From positions 1 to 20,483 of the IMG/VR virus record IMGVR_UViG_3300017989_003481: a stretch of DNA of 20,483 bases; one strand, given 5' to 3'. The translations under genes were made by a program, and so were the position numbers. Origin of the DNA: a virus. Shown piece by piece: positions 1,386-20,483 of this stretch. The notes below the pieces were generated by a model that did no database searches, was not told the DNA's origin, and was given only the letters and a program-made list of their open reading frames with translations. Position 1 is the stretch's first letter. Each line of letters opens with the position of its first letter.

Positions 1386-3404
1386 ATGCTGGCCGCCGTG
1401 ATCATGGTAAGCTCCATAATACTCAGCCCGATCAGCCAGGTCATCGCCGCCGGCCGGGAAGCCTGGCAGCCGGCTCCGCGGCCGGTACGATCGCAATGGT
1501 GTGTCGAGCATATCAAAATCCCGAGTCAGACCGGCGCGCAGCCTGGCTCATTCGACCTCGCTCACGGCCATCCGTACATTCGCGAGATCCTCGACGCCGT
1601 CGACGATCCAGACATACGCCGGATCACGTTCATTGCCTGCACGCAGATCGGCAAAACGGAGGCGGTCAAGGCGATCGCGCTGAGCCAGGGCGAGGTTGAT
1701 CGGGCGCCGATGATGTTCGCCGGTCCCGACCAGGTCTACACGCGCGAGCACCGCCGGGTGATCTACATGACGGCCGAGGCCTCGCCCACGTTATCGAGGC
1801 GGATCCCGCCCGAGCGGCTACGTAACGATTTATGGATCGATCTCCAGAAGAGCCTGGTATACCTGGCCTGGAGCGGATCCTCGCAACGGCTCTCCGGCCG
1901 CGCCTGCAAGGTGGTCCTGTGCAGCGAGGTCGATCGCTGGCAGAACTCGCCGACGCTGGCCGAGGAGCGGACGAAGGCCTTTTCGGCCAACTCGACCGTG
2001 ATCTTCGAGGGCACGCCGGTCGATCATTCGCCGTATCTGGAGGATTACTACAAGCAGAGCGATCGCCGCACGTTTCACGTCCCCTGTCCGCAATGCGGCC
2101 ACTGGCAGGCGTTGCGATTCTTTCCGCACCGCAAGGGCCCCTACGCCGGCCGCGGCGGCGTGGGCGGCCTGAAAGACGAGCGCGGCAACTGGCGATCGCC
2201 CGAGCAGGCGCGGCTGGCCGCATATTATATTTGCGAGCGCGGATGCCGGATCGAGGAAGAGGACCGGATGGAGATGATCCGTCTCGGCCGCTGGGTGCGC
2301 GACGGCCAGCGGATCGACGCCGGCGGCACCCTGTGCGGCACGGCGAAGAATCCATGCCGCCACGCCGGCTACCGGCTGAACTCGCTGTATTCCTCGACGA
2401 TCACCTTCGGCGACGCGGCGGAGAAATACCTCGGCATTCGCGATTCCCAGGAAGGACTTTCGCGATTCTTCAACGACTGGCTGGGGCTGGGATTCACTGC
2501 CCGCGGCCGCACGCCGTCTTGGAAGGATCTCGGCCAGCGGCTGGCCGGTCCCGTGCCGCGCGGCGTGATCCCGCGGGCGGCATATTTCCTAGTCGCGGCG
2601 GCCGACGTCCAGGAGAGAGGAGTATATTGGTCCGTCCGCGCGTTCGGCGATCGCAAGACGAGCTGGTTGGTGGATTTCGGCTACCTGGCCAAACAACTCC
2701 GGCTCGGCATCGGCGAGGACGATCAGGCCGAGGAGCAGATCGCCAGCGACCTGGCGCAACTCGACGAGGCGGTGCTTTCGCGGCGCTGGCCGGTCGACGG
2801 CCAAAACGCCCGCGGCCTGTCCCATCTTGCGGTCCGGCTCCTGGGCGTCGACCGAGGTTACCGAGCCACCGATGTAGACGCCTTCATCCGCGCGCATCCG
2901 GGGACCCGCGTGACGGCCGTCTACGGCGATCCCAAGATCACGCCCGGCACGCTCTATCGTCCGATGAAGACCGAGCGTTCGGCCCGCGACGGCCGCCTGG
3001 TCCCGGTCGAGGATCCTCGCACATGGGGCATCGAGACGGGGGCCTACAAATCGGAGATCTCCGACCGCTGGTTCGCCGACCGCACGCAACCGGGCGTATG
3101 GTGGCTGCCGTCGGACATTTTAGAGACCGACGGGGGCGAGGACTATCTCCGCCAGATCACGGCCGAGAGCCGCCGCTTCGAGCTGCTGAACGGCCGGAAA
3201 GTGGTCCGCTGGTTGCTAATTTCCAAGGGCGCGCCGAATCACTACTTCGACACCGAGGTATACAGCGCGTGCCTGGCCGACATGATCGTCGGCAACTGCT
3301 GGGAGGCCGCCGAGTGGGCCGTCCCGCAGCGTGTCGCGGCCGCCCGCGACGAACACGAACACGCCGCCCGCGAAGCGCCGGCGGACGATTTTTCGGCCAG
3401 ATAG
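1386..3404 (+). CDS. terL: Phage terminase large subunit, GpA family (ATPase and nuclease)
   Basis: This 672-residue protein is of the lambda gpA class, which pumps DNA into the prohead and cuts concatemers. Visible features, in order, are: the 'REAWQPAPRPVRSQW' entry region (24-38); a Walker A-like loop TQIGKT at 86-91; a Walker B-like strand VVLCSEVDRW at 176-185; coupling motif EGTP at 208-211; and a zinc-binding insert with CPQC (234-237) plus CERGC (283-287), followed by the family's M..G.W segment. The nuclease domain begins at AAADVQERG (404-412), where D407 matches the first catalytic acid. ATG 1386 is chosen because GAGGAGG lies nine bases upstream; ATG 1404 is an alternative. The acidic-basic C-terminal tail probably docks on the portal. 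The length is normal for the family. Confidence 0.95.
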   Translation: MLAAVIMVSSIILSPISQVIAAGREAWQPAPRPVRSQWCVEHIKIPSQTGAQPGSFDLAHGHPYIREILDAVDDPDIRRITFIACTQIGKTEAVKAIALSQGEVDRAPMMFAGPDQVYTREHRRVIYMTAEASPTLSRRIPPERLRNDLWIDLQKSLVYLAWSGSSQRLSGRACKVVLCSEVDRWQNSPTLAEERTKAFSANSTVIFEGTPVDHSPYLEDYYKQSDRRTFHVPCPQCGHWQALRFFPHRKGPYAGRGGVGGLKDERGNWRSPEQARLAAYYICERGCRIEEEDRMEMIRLGRWVRDGQRIDAGGTLCGTAKNPCRHAGYRLNSLYSSTITFGDAAEKYLGIRDSQEGLSRFFNDWLGLGFTARGRTPSWKDLGQRLAGPVPRGVIPRAAYFLVAAADVQERGVYWSVRAFGDRKTSWLVDFGYLAKQLRLGIGEDDQAEEQIASDLAQLDEAVLSRRWPVDGQNARGLSHLAVRLLGVDRGYRATDVDAFIRAHPGTRVTAVYGDPKITPGTLYRPMKTERSARDGRLVPVEDPRTWGIETGAYKSEISDRWFADRTQPGVWWLPSDILETDGGEDYLRQITAESRRFELLNGRKVVRWLLISKGAPNHYFDTEVYSACLADMIVGNCWEAAEWAVPQRVAAARDEHEHAAREAPADDFSAR

Positions 3405-3442
3405 GGCCGACAGACAATCCTTTACAGAAAGCGAAGTTGATA

Positions 3443-3721
3443 ATGGCAAAGAGCACAGCAAAACCGGCCAAGCCCTTGGCCGACGATCCCGCCGCCGACG
3501 TCGTCGAGCAGCCGGCGACCAAGCCCGCGCCGCCCCGGGCCCGGCAGTCGTCGGCCCCATTCTGTCCATATCATAAAAAAACGCGATGCAAGGCGGGCCA
3601 CAGCGATGCCTATTTCACGCGTTACTACTGCCCAGAGGAGGGCTGCACCTACTCGCAGAAGGTCGCGCGGCCGAACATGCCGTCGCGGCTGCACCGCGCG
3701 GAAGATTTTGGAGCGCGGTAG
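3443..3721 (+). CDS. Small zinc-ribbon protein of the packaging module
   Basis: This 92-residue protein has a Lys/Ala/Pro-rich disordered N-terminus (1-38). A compact zinc-ribbon-like C-terminus follows, with CPYH at 41-44, C49, H53, and CPEEGC at 63-68. The Cys/His spacing is right for one structural zinc. The sequence after the second knuckle (YSQKVARP) resembles short zinc ribbons common in phage accessory proteins, but I cannot name a family. The ATG at 3443 follows a weak GAAG. It sits between the large terminase and a nuclease gene (three-base gap after its stop), so it is co-transcribed with them. A DNA- or RNA-binding accessory role is inference. A run of A residues in the knuckle codons (CAT AAA AAA ACG) does not disrupt the frame. 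Confidence 0.7.
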   Translation: MAKSTAKPAKPLADDPAADVVEQPATKPAPPRARQSSAPFCPYHKKTRCKAGHSDAYFTRYYCPEEGCTYSQKVARPNMPSRLHRAEDFGAR

Positions 3722-3724
3722 CGG

Positions 3725-4099
3725 ATGCTGCACAAATCGCACTGGAGCGCGCATCTTCGCGGCCGTCCGAAGCAGCGCGGCGAAATGAACAAGCTCGAAA
3801 GCGCCTGGGCGGCCGAGTTGGAAACCCGCCGGCTGGCCGGCGAGTTGCTCTGGTGGCGATACGAGGCGGCCACGCTGAAGCTGACCGAGAAGACTCCCGG
3901 CGGCAAGCCGGGCATCCGCTACACGCCCGACTTCCTGGTGATGCTCCCGGACGGCCTGCTGGAGTGTCACGAGGTAAAGGGTTTCGCGGCCCCCGTCGAC
4001 CTCAACCGTCTGAAGCTGGCCGCCGACATATTTCCGTTTCGCTTCCTGCTGGTCCGTCGCGGCAAAAAAAACTCCGGTTGGCAGACCGAGGAGTTTTAG
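3725..4099 (+). CDS. DUF1064-type phage endonuclease (PD-(D/E)XK fold)
   Basis: This 124-residue protein matches the DUF1064 pattern of small phage nucleases, thought to act on branched or unpackaged DNA. The body starts MNKLESAWAAELE (21-33), with a helix supplying a Glu. 'WWRYEAATLKL' follows, then YTPDF with catalytic D69, and ECHEVKG with E83 and K85, which is the E-x-K of the PD-(D/E)XK core. The C-terminal strand is FPFRFLLVRR. ATG 3725 lies three bases after the previous stop; the conserved part would also fit a start at ATG 3785. The run of eight A residues at 4064-4071 encodes K-K-N near the natural end of the family, so no frameshift is needed. The gene ends at 4099, exactly abutting the convergent regulator at 4100. 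Confidence 0.8.
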   Translation: MLHKSHWSAHLRGRPKQRGEMNKLESAWAAELETRRLAGELLWWRYEAATLKLTEKTPGGKPGIRYTPDFLVMLPDGLLECHEVKGFAAPVDLNRLKLAADIFPFRFLLVRRGKKNSGWQTEEF

Positions 4100-5849: not shown

Positions 5850-7403
5850 ATGAGCTATATCGTCAAGCAGAAGCTGGGGCCGATCGGCCGCGTCCGCCGC
5901 GCCCTCGGCGTGCTGATGACCGGCACCGGGCTGAAGGTCTACGGCGCGCATCCCTACAAAGGCGGCGAGGTAAACCGGCTGAACAAGACCTGGCAGCCGA
6001 ACCACTATTCGGGCGACGGCGCCGTCGCCGAGGACTGGGAGCTGCTGACCGCCAGGATCCGCGACCTGGGCCGCAACGATCCGGCCATCCGGTCGCTAAA
6101 GCGAGCGCTGCTGGACCACGTGGTCTCGACCGGAATCGGCACCACGGCCAACGTGACCGTGGCCGGCGAGCTGGTCGAGGATTTCAACGCCGAGTCCGAC
6201 GAGTTGTTCGAGTGGTGGAGCGAAAACGAGTGCGACGTCGAGCGGCGTTTGAGTTGGCCCGACATGCAGCGGCAACTGTTCGAGGAGTTGCTGGAGACCG
6301 GCGACGCGCTGCTGTTGCGATGCGCCGATCCGGACCGCGCCCGCTCGATCCCCTTATGCTACCAGGCCCTGGAGGCCGAGCAGCTCGACGCGATGAAGGA
6401 TCAGCTTCCAGGGGCCGGGCGCAACGAAATCAAACGCGGCATCGAGTTCGACCGCCGCGGCCGCCGCGCCGCCTATTGGCTGTTCTCCGCGCACCCCAGC
6501 GATCCGCACGCCGCGTTCAGCACCCGCTCGATCCGCGTCCCGGCAGAGCGCGTGATCCACTTCACATTGCCCGGCCGTCCCAGTCAGACCCGCGGCGTGG
6601 GCCTCTATAACGCCATCATCCAATCCGCTCGCGACCTGGACAACTATCTCGGTAGCGAACTGACCAGCGCCACCATCGCCAGCCTGTTCACGGTCGTTCA
6701 CAAGACGAAAACTCCCGGCACCGGGATGGGCTTCGTCGGCGACGGCTCGGAGACCGATGCGTCGGACGATTACGGCAATCCGCTGATAAAGCTCGGCCGC
6801 GGCATCGTCTCGCAGATCCCCCGCGAAGACGACGTCACGCCGGTCAAGGTCGACCGGCCAAACAACAAGGCCGACACCTTCGTGCGGCTGATCCTGATGC
6901 TGATGGGGATGGGCGGCGGCGTGTCGCGCTACCGTCTGACGCGCGACTACAGCGGCACCACCTACATCGCCTCCCGCGCCGCTCATATCGACGACCGGGC
7001 CAGCTTTCGGCCCTTGCAAGGCTATTTCGGCCGCCAGCTCTGCCTGCCGGTGCGGCGAGATTTCCAGCTTCAAACGGCCGCCTACGGCGGCTTTTCCAGC
7101 GTCTCCGCCACGCAGTTCCGGCGGCAGTTGCGCCGCTGGCAACGGCTGCAGCTCCAGCTCCCCGGCTGGGAGATGCTCGATCCGGAGAAAGAGACCGACG
7201 CCGCGATCGCCCGGATCGGCGCCGGCCTCTCGACGCTGGAGGAAGAGTGCGCGGCCCGCGGCAAGAACTGGCGGCGCGTGATCCTGCAGCGGAAGCGCGA
7301 GCAGGACTTCGCCGCCGAGCACGGCGTGACGCTGAACCTGATGCGTCCCAGCACGGCCGGCCAGGGCGGGCAGGCGGAACCCGAACCGGTCGCGGAGGAA
7401 TGA
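5850..7403 (+). CDS. Phage portal protein, lambda gpB type
   Basis: This 517-residue protein is of the lambda-B portal family, which forms the dodecameric ring at the unique capsid vertex and binds terminase and connectors. Diagnostic segments are: 'EDWELLTARIRDLGRNDP' then AIRSLKRALLDHVVSTGIG (61-97); WSENE and the following WPDMQRQLFEELLETGDALL (123-155); 'GIEFDRRGRRAAYWLF' (197-212); 'RVIHFTLPGRPSQTRGVG' (234-251); and 'YSGTTYIASRAAHIDDRASF' (367-386), the lambda-B 'ysS.R.a..e' signature. The C-terminal tail is charged. The start at 5850 has only a weak purine-rich upstream region, so coupling to the connector gene is likely. The length is typical. The last codons contain GGAGGAA, the ribosome-binding site of the next gene. 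Confidence 0.92.
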   Translation: MSYIVKQKLGPIGRVRRALGVLMTGTGLKVYGAHPYKGGEVNRLNKTWQPNHYSGDGAVAEDWELLTARIRDLGRNDPAIRSLKRALLDHVVSTGIGTTANVTVAGELVEDFNAESDELFEWWSENECDVERRLSWPDMQRQLFEELLETGDALLLRCADPDRARSIPLCYQALEAEQLDAMKDQLPGAGRNEIKRGIEFDRRGRRAAYWLFSAHPSDPHAAFSTRSIRVPAERVIHFTLPGRPSQTRGVGLYNAIIQSARDLDNYLGSELTSATIASLFTVVHKTKTPGTGMGFVGDGSETDASDDYGNPLIKLGRGIVSQIPREDDVTPVKVDRPNNKADTFVRLILMLMGMGGGVSRYRLTRDYSGTTYIASRAAHIDDRASFRPLQGYFGRQLCLPVRRDFQLQTAAYGGFSSVSATQFRRQLRRWQRLQLQLPGWEMLDPEKETDAAIARIGAGLSTLEEECAARGKNWRRVILQRKREQDFAAEHGVTLNLMRPSTAGQGGQAEPEPVAEE

Positions 7404-7407
7404 CCAG

Positions 7408-10047
7408 ATGCCAGCCGAGCAGAAAAAACACGCGATCCGCAACGTGGTCCGCACGGTATGCGCCACCCCCTGGGCGATCGAGCCGCAAAAGCTCGACGAG
7501 ATCGTCGAGTTGCTCAACCTCCGCGCCGAGGGCGCAACGCTCGACGAGGAGGAGATCCGCCAGCGGCTGGCCGCCGCCCGGCCGACGCTGGCTATCGCCG
7601 GCCGCGTATCGTCCGAGGATGGCGAGGAGGCGGCCTACCGGTTGACCGAGCAGGGGATCGCCTTGATTCCGCTCTACGGCGTGCTGGCCCCGCGGATGAA
7701 CATGATGACCCGCATCAGCGGCGGCACGTCCACCGAGCAGTTCGCCGACGCCGTCCGCCAGGCGGTCGCCGACGACCAGGTCCGCGCGATCGTGCTCGAC
7801 GTGGATTCGCCGGGCGGCAACGTCCAGGGCACTGAAGAAGCGGCCCAGGCCGTCAGGGAAGCGCGATCCAAGAAGCCGACCATAGCCGTCGCCACGAACC
7901 TGATGGCCTCGGCCGCCTATCACATCGGTTCGGCGGCCGCCGAGATCGTGGCCAGTCCCACCGCGCTGGTCGGCTCGCTGGGAGTGTTCACCGTCCACAG
8001 CGAATCATCCGAGAATCGCCGCTCCTACGGCGTCCGCGACACGGTGATCAAGGCCGGCAAGTTCAAGACCGACGGCAACGCCTACGAGCCGCTCGGCCAG
8101 CAGGGCCGGGCCACGATCCAGGAGCGGATAGATGATTACTACGAGCTGATGATCGGCGCCGTGGCTGAGAATCGCCGCGTGTCGGTCGAGACAGTCAATG
8201 AACAATTCGGCCAGGGTAAGGCCTGGGTCGCGCATCGCGCGGTCTCCGCCGGCCTGGCCGATCGTATCGGAACGCTTTCCGGCGTCATGGCGGAGCTCGC
8301 CCGGAAACTTGATAGTCCCTCCGCCGTCGCAATCCAATCCACGGAGAACATGACCATGGATAAGGAGATTTTCCAGGCCCTCGTCAATCGAGGCCTGATC
8401 GCCGCCGAGGCCACCGAGGCCGAGGCCGCCGCCGCGCTGAAAGCCTGGTACGCCGCCACCGGCGGCAAGCCGCCCGCCGACGCCGAGGGCAAGTTGGACG
8501 CCAAGCGGATCGTCACCGATCTGACCGCGTCTGCCTCCAGCGCCGGAACAACCGCCTCCAGCGCCGGAACAACCGCGTCCAGCGCCGGAACAACCGCCTC
8601 CAGCGCCGGAACAACCGCCTCCAGCGCCGGAACAACCGCGTCCAGCGCCGCGCCCGCCGAGCCGGAGCGGGCCGAAGGCCGCGAAGATCTCACCGCTCGC
8701 GACCGCCGGCTCCGCGCCGACGCGGCCGCGGCCGAACGGGTCCGCATCGAGGAGATCCGCTCCCGGGGCGAGCTGCTGGGCGTGGCCGCCGAAACCATCC
8801 AGGCCGCCGTCGACGAGGGCACGTCGCTTGCCGACTTCCTCGACTCGGCGACCAAGAACCTCACCGCCAGGGAGACCTCCGTGCCAAGACTCGAATCGGG
8901 CCAATCGGCCCAAGAACGGTTCGCCGACGCCGCCTGCGACGCGCTGCTGTTGCGGTGCGGAGTCGCGTTGGGCGAGGATCGCCAGCCGAGCGAAGGCGCC
9001 CGCGCGTTGGAGTACGGCTCGCTGATCGACCTGACCAAGGAATCGTTCCGCGTCGCCAGCGGCCGCGCGCCGATCGGCAGCAACGACACGATCGCCAAGG
9101 CCGCCCTCGGCGATCCGGAAGCGATGCGGATCCTGGGGGCCGATTTCCCGGCGCAGACGCCGGGCTCGTTCCCCAACATCCTCGCCAACGTGGCCAATCG
9201 CACGCTGGAGGCGGCCCCGCAGTACGTTGGAACCACCTTCCAAAACTGGGCCGCCCGGCGGCCCAGCGTCCCCGACTTCCGGCCGCAGACCCTGGTCCGC
9301 TTCGGCACCTTCGGCGAGTTCCCGCTGCACGTCGATGGAGACAACTTCGAGCAATCGGAGCTGTCCGAGGACTATGCCTGGCTCTCGGTCGACAGCTACG
9401 GCGACGAGTTCGGCCTGACGCCGCGGATGATGGTCGACGACGACCTGGGCGCGTTCATGGACGCCCTTGGCGACAAGCAGGCGGCACACGACCAGACGCT
9501 CAACCGTCTGTGCGTCAACCTCCTCACCGGCAACGTGCTGTGCGCGGACGGCGTTGCGTTGTTCAACGCCGCCGGCCACCAGGGCAACGACATCCTCGCC
9601 GGCGCCGGCGGCCAGCCGAGCACCGCGCAACTCTCCGCCATGCGGACCGTGCTGCGGCAGCAGACCGGAGTCGGCGGCACGCGTCAACTCAACCAGACGA
9701 TCGCTCGGCTGCTGGTGCCCGAGGCGCTGGAAACGGTGACCCAGCAGTTGTTGGCCGCCACGCTGCAGATCCATCCGATCCAGGAAACGGCCACGCCCGT
9801 CTTCAAGGGCCAGGTCGCCTGGGACGTCGAGCCGATGCTTACCGCCCATTCGGCGGCGATTTACTACGGCTTCGCCGATCCGGCCCGCGCCCGCTCGATT
9901 GTCTACTGCTACCAGCGCGGTTTCGAGCGGATGGTCACTCGCAACTATTACAACCCGCAAAACAACTGCCGCTTTTGGCAGTTCGAGGGCCGCTTCGCCG
10001 CCGCCGTGAACAATTACCGCGGCGTGATCCGCAACGCCGGGGCGTAA
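7408..10047 (+). CDS. Prohead protease (S49, gpC-like)-scaffold-major capsid fusion protein
   Basis: This 879-residue polyprotein combines three lambda functions (C, Nu3, E). Residues about 80-300 are a ClpP/SppA-fold S49 protease: VLDVDSPGGN (129-138), nucleophile S168 in MASAAY, SLGVFT (190-195) and the candidate general-base K220 in KAGKFK. Residues about 317-490 are Ala/Glu-rich, helical and repeat-bearing (ASSAGTT units), as expected for a scaffolding/delta segment. Residues about 495-879 are a gpT/E-like major capsid domain, with DYAWLSVDSYGDEFGLTPRM and LFNAAGHQGND. GGAGG nine bases before ATG 7408 sets the start. Similar protease-capsid fusions are known in databases. In-frame ATG 8356 and GTG 8881, each with a ribosome-binding site, could yield scaffold-capsid and capsid-only products. 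Self-cleavage is the alternative route to free capsid. Confidence 0.9.
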   Translation: MPAEQKKHAIRNVVRTVCATPWAIEPQKLDEIVELLNLRAEGATLDEEEIRQRLAAARPTLAIAGRVSSEDGEEAAYRLTEQGIALIPLYGVLAPRMNMMTRISGGTSTEQFADAVRQAVADDQVRAIVLDVDSPGGNVQGTEEAAQAVREARSKKPTIAVATNLMASAAYHIGSAAAEIVASPTALVGSLGVFTVHSESSENRRSYGVRDTVIKAGKFKTDGNAYEPLGQQGRATIQERIDDYYELMIGAVAENRRVSVETVNEQFGQGKAWVAHRAVSAGLADRIGTLSGVMAELARKLDSPSAVAIQSTENMTMDKEIFQALVNRGLIAAEATEAEAAAALKAWYAATGGKPPADAEGKLDAKRIVTDLTASASSAGTTASSAGTTASSAGTTASSAGTTASSAGTTASSAAPAEPERAEGREDLTARDRRLRADAAAAERVRIEEIRSRGELLGVAAETIQAAVDEGTSLADFLDSATKNLTARETSVPRLESGQSAQERFADAACDALLLRCGVALGEDRQPSEGARALEYGSLIDLTKESFRVASGRAPIGSNDTIAKAALGDPEAMRILGADFPAQTPGSFPNILANVANRTLEAAPQYVGTTFQNWAARRPSVPDFRPQTLVRFGTFGEFPLHVDGDNFEQSELSEDYAWLSVDSYGDEFGLTPRMMVDDDLGAFMDALGDKQAAHDQTLNRLCVNLLTGNVLCADGVALFNAAGHQGNDILAGAGGQPSTAQLSAMRTVLRQQTGVGGTRQLNQTIARLLVPEALETVTQQLLAATLQIHPIQETATPVFKGQVAWDVEPMLTAHSAAIYYGFADPARARSIVYCYQRGFERMVTRNYYNPQNNCRFWQFEGRFAAAVNNYRGVIRNAGA
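8343..8358 (+). promoter_or_regulatory. Candidate internal ribosome-binding site and ATG (scaffold-capsid product)
   Basis: GGAG (8343-8346) lies nine bases before the in-frame ATG at 8356 (Met317), and another ATG is at 8350. It falls precisely at the junction between the protease domain and the helical scaffold-like segment. Lambda Nu3 arises from an internal start within C at the analogous place. Confidence 0.5.
8533..8650 (+). repeat. 21-bp tandem repeat encoding ASSAGTT, five copies plus a partial
   Basis: Units begin at 8533, 8554, 8575, 8596 and 8617, with a partial sixth at 8638. The only visible differences are the third base of the first codon (GCC, GCC, GCG, GCC, GCC, GCG). That pattern suggests a 63-bp trimer was duplicated. 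The frame is kept throughout. It encodes a flexible Ser/Thr/Gly/Ala linker (from residue 376) in the scaffold-like part of the capsid fusion. Confidence 0.9.
8869..8883 (+). promoter_or_regulatory. Candidate internal ribosome-binding site and GTG (capsid-only product)
   Basis: AGGGAG (8869-8874) is six bases before an in-frame GTG at 8881 (Val492), just before the predicted capsid domain (PRLESGQSAQERFADAACDA). Initiation here would give a 388-residue major capsid protein of ordinary length. This may be the relic of, or still function as, the start of a once separate capsid gene. Confidence 0.45.
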
Positions 10048-14893: not shown

Positions 14894-16786
14894 ATGAACG
14901 TCAAGACCACATTCACCAGCGACTCGAAGCAGTTGGAGGCCACGCTCCACAAGCTGGAGCGTCAGAACACCAAGCTGATCGAGCAGAACCGCCGCCTGGC
15001 CGGCGAAAGCCGCCGCGCGTCGGCCGCCGCCGGCAAGCAGGCCGACTCGGCCGGCCGGGCCGCCGACCGGGCCGTCGGTTCGATCGCCCGGATGGCCGCC
15101 GGCTATCTCTCCATGCAGGCGGCGATAAATCTGGTGGTCCAATCGCTCAAGGACAAGGAAGTGCAGGAGGCCAAGTCCCGCGACGCCACTCTCTCGGTGG
15201 CGGACGCCCAGATCAAGGCCCTGCGAAACCTGGGCCCGGTCGCCGCCTCGGTGCAGAAGGATTTCACCGATCAGATCGCCAAAATGGCCGCCGAGACGCC
15301 GGTGGCCGGCGGCGAGGCCACCCTCTACAGCGCCGCATCGACCGGGCTGTCGGCCAGCGGCGGCAACGTCAAGGCCACGATGGACGCCATCCGGGCGGCC
15401 GTGGCGATCGCGCCGGAGTCGGCGCAGGAGATCGAGGCCATATCCGGCGCGCTGCTGCACCTGGGCAAAGCCACCGGCACCTTCGACGCCGAGAAGAATC
15501 TCGGCTTCCTGCTCGGCGTCGGCCAGCAGGCGGCGGTGACCAGCACCGAGAAGATCGCCGCCAACCTGGCCCCGGGCATCATCGGCGCCACCGGCTACGG
15601 CGGGACCGCGCAGGAATCGGGCGCGATTATCGCCGCCTTGACCCAGGGCATGGCCGATCCGGAGGGCCGCAAGGCGTCCACCGCTGCGGTGAACATGGCC
15701 AAGCAGTTGGAGGCCTTCCTGCCGGAGAAGACGACCTACAAGACGGAAGAGGACAAGAGGACCGGCAAGATCACCAAGGTCGCCGACGTGGAGGGGACCG
15801 GGCTGCGGACCACGGCCGAGCGGATCCGCTACATGCAGGAAAACGCCGAGGCGCGCCAGCGGTTCCTGGCCCAGGCCACATTCGAGACCAAGGCCCAGAT
15901 CCCGATCGAGCAGCTCCTCGGCGCGACCGAGCGGGGCGACGCCACGCGTAAGTCGTTCGAGGAGGCGTTGCAAAAAATACCCAAGGCCGAGGACGCCGGC
16001 CAGATCGCCCGCGAAATGGCCGAATCGGTCAAGCGGCCGTTCCAACAGCAGATCGCCGGCCAGCAGCGGGCCGCCGACGCACTGGCCGACTCGCTGGATC
16101 GCGACGAGGGCGGCCGCGCTCGCGCCAAGGCGGGCGTCTACAGCGTCGAGAACCTCGACAAAATGCTGCAAAAGTCTGGGATGGGATTCATCGCCCGCAC
16201 AGCGGAGGCGATTGATTACCGCGTGCGACGGAAGCTCGGCGACACCGCGAAGACGGCCTACGGTGCGGTGGCGAAGCGGCGCGCGGTCGCGCTGAGGCGG
16301 CAGGGCCGAACGGAAGAGGCCGAACAGATCGAGGCCGAATGGGGAACGCGCGCCGACGAGCGTTATCGCGTCCCGGGTGCACAGCCGATCGGTCGCCAGT
16401 GGGAGCGCCAGCCCGAGCCGATCGCCGCGCCGGCTCAGCCGGCGGTCGCGATGCCCGAGCCGATCGCCGCGCCGGCTCAGCCGGCGGTCGCGATGCCCGA
16501 GCCGATCGCCGCACCGGCTCAGCCGGCGGTCGCGATGCCCGAGCCGATCGCCGCGCCCGATCCACGCGGCCGCGGTCTGTGGGACCTGATGCCGCCGGAG
16601 AATAATCCGCCGGCCGCGGCGCCGAACCAACCGGCCGGCGAAGACCAGGCGGCGCTGCTCCGCGAACAGAACAGACTATTGGCGAAGATCGCCGCCAATA
16701 CGCGGCGGACCGCCGGGCGATCCGCCCGGCCAGATCCGGCCGCCGTGGCCGCCGGCCGCACGATCCACGGAGAGGTCGTCGCATGA
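14894..16786 (+). CDS. Tail tape measure protein
   Basis: This 630-residue protein determines tail length and passes through the tube. The N-terminus is coiled-coil-like (SKQLEATLHKLERQNTKLIE, then QNRRLAGESRRASAAAGKQA). An Ala-rich, mildly hydrophobic helix follows (about 62-82), then long alpha-helical stretches rich in Ala, Gln, Lys and Glu, typical of tape measure proteins. The segment 'AAETPVAGGEATLYSAASTG' to 'KATGTF' resembles the ordered core of phage tail length proteins. From about residue 507 a Pro/Ala-rich 14-residue repeat (PEPIAAPAQPAVAM) appears three times, followed by a helical C-terminus. At roughly 0.15 nm per residue it predicts a tail near 95 nm. The start follows the chaperone's shifted frame by four bases. 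The stop overlaps the next start (ATGA). Confidence 0.8.
   Translation: MNVKTTFTSDSKQLEATLHKLERQNTKLIEQNRRLAGESRRASAAAGKQADSAGRAADRAVGSIARMAAGYLSMQAAINLVVQSLKDKEVQEAKSRDATLSVADAQIKALRNLGPVAASVQKDFTDQIAKMAAETPVAGGEATLYSAASTGLSASGGNVKATMDAIRAAVAIAPESAQEIEAISGALLHLGKATGTFDAEKNLGFLLGVGQQAAVTSTEKIAANLAPGIIGATGYGGTAQESGAIIAALTQGMADPEGRKASTAAVNMAKQLEAFLPEKTTYKTEEDKRTGKITKVADVEGTGLRTTAERIRYMQENAEARQRFLAQATFETKAQIPIEQLLGATERGDATRKSFEEALQKIPKAEDAGQIAREMAESVKRPFQQQIAGQQRAADALADSLDRDEGGRARAKAGVYSVENLDKMLQKSGMGFIARTAEAIDYRVRRKLGDTAKTAYGAVAKRRAVALRRQGRTEEAEQIEAEWGTRADERYRVPGAQPIGRQWERQPEPIAAPAQPAVAMPEPIAAPAQPAVAMPEPIAAPAQPAVAMPEPIAAPDPRGRGLWDLMPPENNPPAAAPNQPAGEDQAALLREQNRLLAKIAANTRRTAGRSARPDPAAVAAGRTIHGEVVA
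16412..16557 (+). repeat. 42-bp tandem repeat within the tape measure gene
   Basis: Three nearly identical 42-base units start at 16412, 16454 and 16496 and a partial fourth runs to about 16557. I see one base difference between complete units (GCG to GCA, synonymous). The frame is preserved and encodes a Pro/Ala-rich 14-residue unit that probably forms an extended linker. The near-identity implies recent expansion. Confidence 0.9.
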
Positions 16787-20108: not shown

Positions 20109-20483
20109 ATGCTTGGATTCTTTCAATATTTTTTGGGAAACGCTGCTACGGCTACAACCGTGGAGCCTACTCCCGCTTCCGCCGCGTGGTCGGTTCCGGC
20201 TCCGTCGTTTCCGAAGACAATCAGCCCGTCGCCGGCGGCCGCCGCCTGGTCAGTTCCGGCTCCGTCGTTTCCGAAGACAATCAGCCCCTCGCCGGCGGCC
20301 GCCGCCTGGTCGGTTCCCGCTCCGACGTTTCCCAAGACAATCAGCCCGTCGCCGGCGGCCGCCGCCTGGTCGGTTCCGGCCCCGTCGTTTCCCAAGACAA
20401 TCAGCCCGTCGCCGGCGGTCGCCGCCTGGTCGGTTCCCGCTCCGACGTTTCCCAAGACAATCAGCCCGTCGCCGGCGACCGCC
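20109..20483 (+). CDS. Trp/Pro 20-residue repeat protein, C-terminus beyond window
   Basis: Open from ATG 20109 to the window end (125 codons visible). A short hydrophobic N-terminus (MLGFFQYFLGNAATATTVEP) is followed, from residue 27, by 20-residue repeats whose core reads WSVPAPSFPKTISPSP, each with one Trp. At least five copies are present, varying at Ser/Thr (APSF/APTF) and Ala/Val. Trp-Pro-rich repeats of this kind occur in planctomycete phage genomes (from memory) and suggest an extended stalk on a fibre or surface protein. The start lies one base after the stop of the previous gene, with GGGAG 13 bases upstream. The function is unknown; the gene is truncated by the window. Confidence 0.65.
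   Translation, partial: MLGFFQYFLGNAATATTVEPTPASAAWSVPAPSFPKTISPSPAAAAWSVPAPSFPKTISPSPAAAAWSVPAPTFPKTISPSPAAAAWSVPAPSFPKTISPSPAVAAWSVPAPTFPKTISPSPATA
20187..20483 (+). repeat. 60-bp tandem repeat, about five copies, running off the window
   Basis: Units begin with TGG at 20187, 20247, 20307, 20367 and 20427; the last is cut by the window edge. Copies differ by a few bases (for example GTCG/GTCA, CCGGCT/CCCGCT, GTCGTT/GACGTT, CCGAAG/CCCAAG). The differences alternate among copies, consistent with unequal exchange and gene conversion. The frame is kept. Confidence 0.95.

Follow-up and report, generated by a model that had tools for sequence, protein, structure and literature searches.

A viral protease–scaffold–capsid fusion gene with a conserved candidate nested start for a protease-free scaffold–capsid protein

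Introduction

A capsid shell requires hundreds of capsid subunits but few proteases, and genes in which a protease and a capsid protein are fused thus pose a problem of stoichiometry. In phage HK97, the protease (gp4) and the capsid protein (gp5) are encoded by separate genes, the scaffold is the N-terminal delta-domain of the capsid protein, and the protease removes this domain. The stretch of viral DNA analyzed here (the window; 20,483 nucleotides, IMG/VR record IMGVR_UViG_3300017989_003481) contains a single open reading frame (ORF) for protease, scaffold and capsid, which raises the question of how these proteins could be made in a suitable ratio from one gene. A first-pass annotation of this DNA had proposed that two nested starts in one frame could give rise to three forms of the protein. 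In the present work, we have examined the fusion ORF, its relatives and other types of protease–capsid fusions in regard to such starts.

Results

The fusion ORF and its surroundings

The features of the window that are relevant to this question are as follows (SD, Shine–Dalgarno motif; aa, amino acids).

758–1384: small terminase gene
1386–3404, plus strand: large terminase gene (PHROG match, phrog_15)
5850–7403, plus strand: portal gene (phrog_21), immediately 5' of the fusion ORF
Ahead of ATG 7408, plus strand: primary SD, GGAGGA, duplex −9.5 kcal/mol
7408–10047, plus strand: S49 protease–scaffold–major capsid fusion, 879 aa, no internal stop
7861–8307, plus strand: Peptidase_S49 domain, residues 152–300 (Pfam PF01343, E 6.9e-33, above the curated cut-off)
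7909–7911 and 8065–8067, plus strand: codons of S168 and K220, aligned with S166 and K218 of lambda C
8343–8346, plus strand: SD GGAG of nested start 1, nine bases ahead of ATG 8356
8356–8358, plus strand: candidate nested start 1, ATG, codon 317 (M-D), which would open a 563-aa scaffold–capsid protein
8356–8880, plus strand: scaffold-like part, with a helical segment (319–373), a low-confidence linker (375–428) and helices (430–488) in the AlphaFold2 model
8533–8650, plus strand: 21-bp tandem repeat, 5.6 copies, coding for a TASSAGT linker inside the scaffold part
8869–8874, plus strand: SD-like AGGGAG (codons Arg-Glu), six bases ahead of GTG 8881
8881–8883, plus strand: proposed nested start 2, GTG, codon 492, unproven
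9160–10035, plus strand: HK97-type major capsid domain, Phage_capsid_4, residues 585–876 (Pfam E 2e-28)

The division of the 879-residue ORF into an S49 protease, a helical scaffold-like part and a major capsid domain, as given in the first-pass annotation, is borne out by the Pfam matches to protease and capsid and by the helices of the scaffold-like part in the structural model. The Phage_capsid_4 score (100.9 bits) lies above the gathering cut-off of 27, and the protein shares 33% identity with lambda C across residues 60–287, where both of the proposed catalytic residues find their counterparts. The AlphaFold2 model has a mean pLDDT of 55; confidence is fairly high in the protease core and in the helical segments and low in three linkers (304–315, 375–428, and 489–498), and the capsid part (pLDDT mostly <50, from an 11-row alignment) does not resolve the domain fold. 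M317, the residue encoded by nested start 1, lies where the first linker ends, between the protease and the helical segment, and codon 492 falls inside the third.

Several other features of the window and of one further contig were observed. A Holliday junction resolvase-like ORF (3725–4099, phrog_190) is located between the terminase and portal genes. A 42-bp repeat (16405–16557, 3.5 copies, 98% matches) lies within an ORF (14894–16786) that has neither a Pfam nor a PHROG match, and a 60-bp tandem repeat (20179–20483, 5.1 copies, 93% matches) reaches the end of the contig and may stem from the end of the assembly or code for a repetitive protein. At a place comparable to that of the TASSAGT repeat, contig L004 carries a different in-frame repeat (LGAGLLTPPASSGGQTQSSTS, 2x), and a DNA string resembling it reappears past the stop codon.

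Relatives of the fusion ORF

Nine relatives of the fusion ORF were found in IMG/VR; direct searches gave one full-length relative (L001), and the others came from scans with alignments, after which duplicate contigs were removed. The resulting family of 10 (the window, L001, L005, L093, L094, L095, L097, L098, L099, and L102) forms a single clade with 100/100 support relative to HK97-proheadase-type and ClpP-type fusions. A match in a Bacilli genome (L002) was spurious and short and was dropped, and Bacillota genomes searched with NF045541 gave weak partial matches, none of them above the cut-off. The more distant Dulem virus 34 has a separate upstream gene followed by a scaffold–capsid gene without a protease part.

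A candidate start at the protease/scaffold junction is conserved in all family members

The GGAG and AGGGAG motifs that had been reported nine bases before ATG 8356 and six bases before GTG 8881 are indeed present in the sequence; a second in-frame ATG occurs at 8350, just 3 bases from GGAG 8343–8346. SD–start pairs of this kind are not rare by chance: an ORF of 879 aa holds about 3.8 of them with duplex energies of ≤ −6 kcal/mol, and any particular junction has a chance of about 9% of lying within 10 codons of one. Hence, the position of such a pair proves little, and conservation alone can decide.

An ATG preceded by an SD at a spacing of 6–9 nt is found at the protease/scaffold junction in 10/10 members of the family (window GGAG-9, L001 AAGGAG-8, L005 AGGAG-8, L093 GGGAG-8, L094 AGGAG-9, L095 AAGGAG-9, L097 AGGAG-8, L098 AAGGAG-6, L099 AGGAG-6, and L102 AAGGAG-6). 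The duplex energies at this site range from −6.5 to −8.7 kcal/mol over the 10 members, as calculated with a generic bacterial anti-SD, which may differ from that of the host. When the complete alignment was scanned, no other point had an SD and a start in all 10 members, and the next best points reached 5–6/10. Most members show weak mRNA folding in this region (Fisher P 5e-6 for the 10, taken as independent), and local GC is low. Synonymous shuffling gave single-gene P values of 0.07–0.75 and a product of 2e-5 that ignores relatedness; by itself, the shuffle is a weak test of this site.

Motifs resembling an SD could also arise as by-products of the constraints that protein sequence and codon use place on a GC-rich gene. 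The background of pairs per ORF given above is in keeping with such an origin, and a conserved Val-Glu-Pro-Met motif yields one of the 5–6/10 points from the protein alone, its SD-like codons being dictated by the residues. This explanation fits nested start 2 and the other SD–start matches, but it does not fit nested start 1, where the SD persists in spite of changes in its codon phase and in the encoded residues (STEN, PQGA, ATGA, MGAP, RQES, QKEN, PQET, TKEK), so that conservation of the protein does not account for it. For this site, it is further disfavored by L095, in which a separate S49 protease gene (3137–4045, 302 aa, ending ...AAAGGAGTATAG) has its stop within the SD region, and the scaffold–capsid gene opens in a different frame at ATG 4050. 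This ATG is the equivalent of nested start 1 and the sole start of its gene, and it must therefore function as a start there. We regard a by-product origin of the conserved motifs as very improbable. L095 is placed inside the clade of fused genes, although this placement is weak, and it may represent a secondary split; whichever way it arose, its gene arrangement suggests that the start at this site can serve alone.

A second rival explanation is that all of the product is made at full length and that self-cleavage frees the scaffold and the capsid protein, with no internal initiation. Cleavage by prohead proteases is established for lambda C and HK97, and it is thus a known activity of such phages. 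However, a polyprotein of this kind would supply one protease per capsid subunit, and it leaves unexplained both the presence of an SD and ATG in 10/10 members in changing codon contexts and the split gene of L095. An origin of the head proteins from the polyprotein alone is, in our view, improbable.

The conservation of nested start 1 is most readily explained by its use in translation. We consider it highly probable that at least two starts are used in one frame, giving the fusion protein from ATG 7408 and a protease-free scaffold–capsid protein from ATG 8356, which would co-assemble. The nested SD of the window is weaker than the primary one (duplex −6.6 vs. −9.5 kcal/mol), and SD strength therefore gives no clear indication that the short form is in large excess.

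The proposed start at the scaffold/capsid junction

The first-pass annotation also held that a capsid-only form is made from GTG 8881, so that two nested starts would yield three proteins (protease–scaffold–capsid, scaffold–capsid, and capsid alone) and set their ratio. In the window, the SD ahead of GTG 8881 is strong (−8.2 kcal/mol), the mRNA there is weakly folded, and the codon falls in a low-confidence linker of the model. AGG, which makes up 3% of the Arg codons, is used in the SD at this site in both the window and L094. Half of the family (5/10) has an SD and a start within 8 codons of the site (≤ −6 kcal/mol), the second-highest peak in the family alignment, and in view of this peak in the sliding scan, the site may be more than pure chance. 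At the column itself, however, GTG with an SD is limited to the window and L094 (2/10, compared with 10/10 for the start and ribosome-binding site at the first junction); six relatives have GTC, L001 has ATC and L095 has GCA. L094 is placed in another branch than the window, and common descent of the site is thus not established. In L097, L098, and L099, an ATG is present seven codons upstream of the column, with an SD spacing of 11, and GTG with an SD appears in 8–10% of synonymous shuffles. A separate capsid start would also be superfluous if the protease cuts the scaffold from the capsid. Thus, of the two nested starts and three forms that were originally proposed, the start between protease and scaffold is upheld by its conservation, its weakly folded mRNA and L095, whereas the capsid-only product is not (GTC in six of the nine relatives, GTG with an SD in L094 only). 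In the window phage, GTG 8881 may serve as an additional start, but it is not needed, and we judge a three-protein arrangement in this family to be doubtful, although it deserves some weight.

Comparison with lambda

The fusion ORF resembles the lambda C/Nu3 system in its S49 protease, in the aligned Ser/Lys pair, and in an in-frame nested SD and ATG after the protease, at codon 309 in lambda C and codon 317 in the window; the parallel with lambda that had been suggested earlier is thus supported. As a positive control, the same scan picks codon 309 of lambda C (AGGAGG and ATG), which we take to be consistent with the Nu3 start; in the GenBank lambda record used, nu3 is annotated from an earlier position. 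ATG 8356 thus probably gives rise to a protease-free scaffold–capsid protein in the manner in which lambda Nu3 starts inside C. The two genes differ in that the lambda frame stops behind the scaffold, with capsid protein E encoded by a separate gene, whereas the capsid domain of the window lies in the same frame, so that the predicted nested product is a scaffold–capsid protein rather than a scaffold. Hence, the gene would work like lambda C/Nu3, yet it is not of the lambda gene type. L006 also carries a lambda-like S49–scaffold gene, in which the junction has an in-frame Met.

Candidate nested starts in other protease–capsid fusions

Compared with HK97 gp4/gp5, the scaffold of the window protein is likewise N-terminal to the capsid, but the HK97 protease belongs to a different family and the genes are separate. 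Protease–capsid fusions themselves are known, as had been noted. In Pseudomonas phage MD8, a single gene (gp5) combines a protease with scaffold and capsid (PMC8508860), and Arthrobacter phages Circum (gp12) and Maggie (gp7) have a fused protease–capsid gene (PMC5513430). Their proteases differ from the S49 protease of the window, that of MD8 being ClpP-like (NCBIfam NF045540) and those of Circum and Maggie HK97-type. Fusions of a further group (NF045541; Paracoccus and Pseudomonas phage LPPA33) have a scaffold–capsid part homologous to that of the window (E 8.9e-77) joined to a protease that is not S49. The window protein scores below the curated cut-offs of both NCBIfam models (131.8 bits vs. 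475 for NF045540; 259 bits vs. 525 for NF045541, with only residues 388–879 matched).

An SD and ATG following the protease are also found in these other fusions: at codon 220 in MD8, at the same column with a different SD in HannyBb (ClpP type), at the protease/scaffold junction in the HK97-proheadase-type fusions (NF045541), and in both Circum and Maggie. The candidate nested starts of Circum are at codons 165 and 242. The statement that nested starts in such fusions have not been described agrees with our search of openly accessible papers, in which no nested start in a protease–capsid fusion was found. The text of the MD8 paper (PMC8508860) does not contain the words "internal", "start codon" or "Shine", and that on the Arthrobacter phages (PMC5513430) does not contain "internal start".

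We have compared nine Circum-type fusions (that of Circum itself, L105 4037–6013, and those of L121–L128; 34–100% identity). The start after the protease is present in six of these and missing in three, and all nine have an SD and a start at the scaffold/capsid boundary, as ATG, GTG or TTG. GAA-GGN codons lie just 5' of this start in the eight actinophages, and all eight use GAA, although it accounts for 13–60% of their Glu codons. On this evidence, the boundary start is likely to be a second nested start, occurring in culturable actinophages and a lactococcal phage. Its presence in 9/9 Circum-type fusions also lends weight to a three-protein arrangement, which may exist in that group.

Discussion

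The arrangement that best accounts for these observations is one in which ATG 7408 would yield the protease–scaffold–capsid fusion, probably as the minority product, and the nested ATG 8356 would yield a protease-free scaffold–capsid protein whose scaffold is an N-terminal domain of the capsid protein, in an HK97-like manner. The fusion would co-assemble through its scaffold–capsid part and thus carry the protease into the prohead, where it could then remove the scaffold. We infer ribosome initiation at 8356, the relative amounts of the two proteins, their co-assembly and the cleavage from the gene sequences. In such an arrangement, the device of lambda C/Nu3 would be supplemented by a fused capsid protein, and the nested start would set the excess of capsid over protease. 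The novel part would be the predicted nested, protease-free scaffold–capsid product of a fusion of this kind.

A broader and rather speculative proposal, which we hold to be unlikely in its full form, is that, among fusion genes with unrelated proteases, nested ribosome-binding sites at the domain junctions have been retained or acquired repeatedly, so that one frame yields two or three head proteins in a set ratio, and that the window phage uses both of its sites. The idea of nested starts is testable in culturable phages such as Circum and MD8. If it is true, the annotations of fused protease–capsid genes list just one product of each gene, and the stoichiometry problem that these genes pose would be solved by a nested start recurring in different types of fusion.
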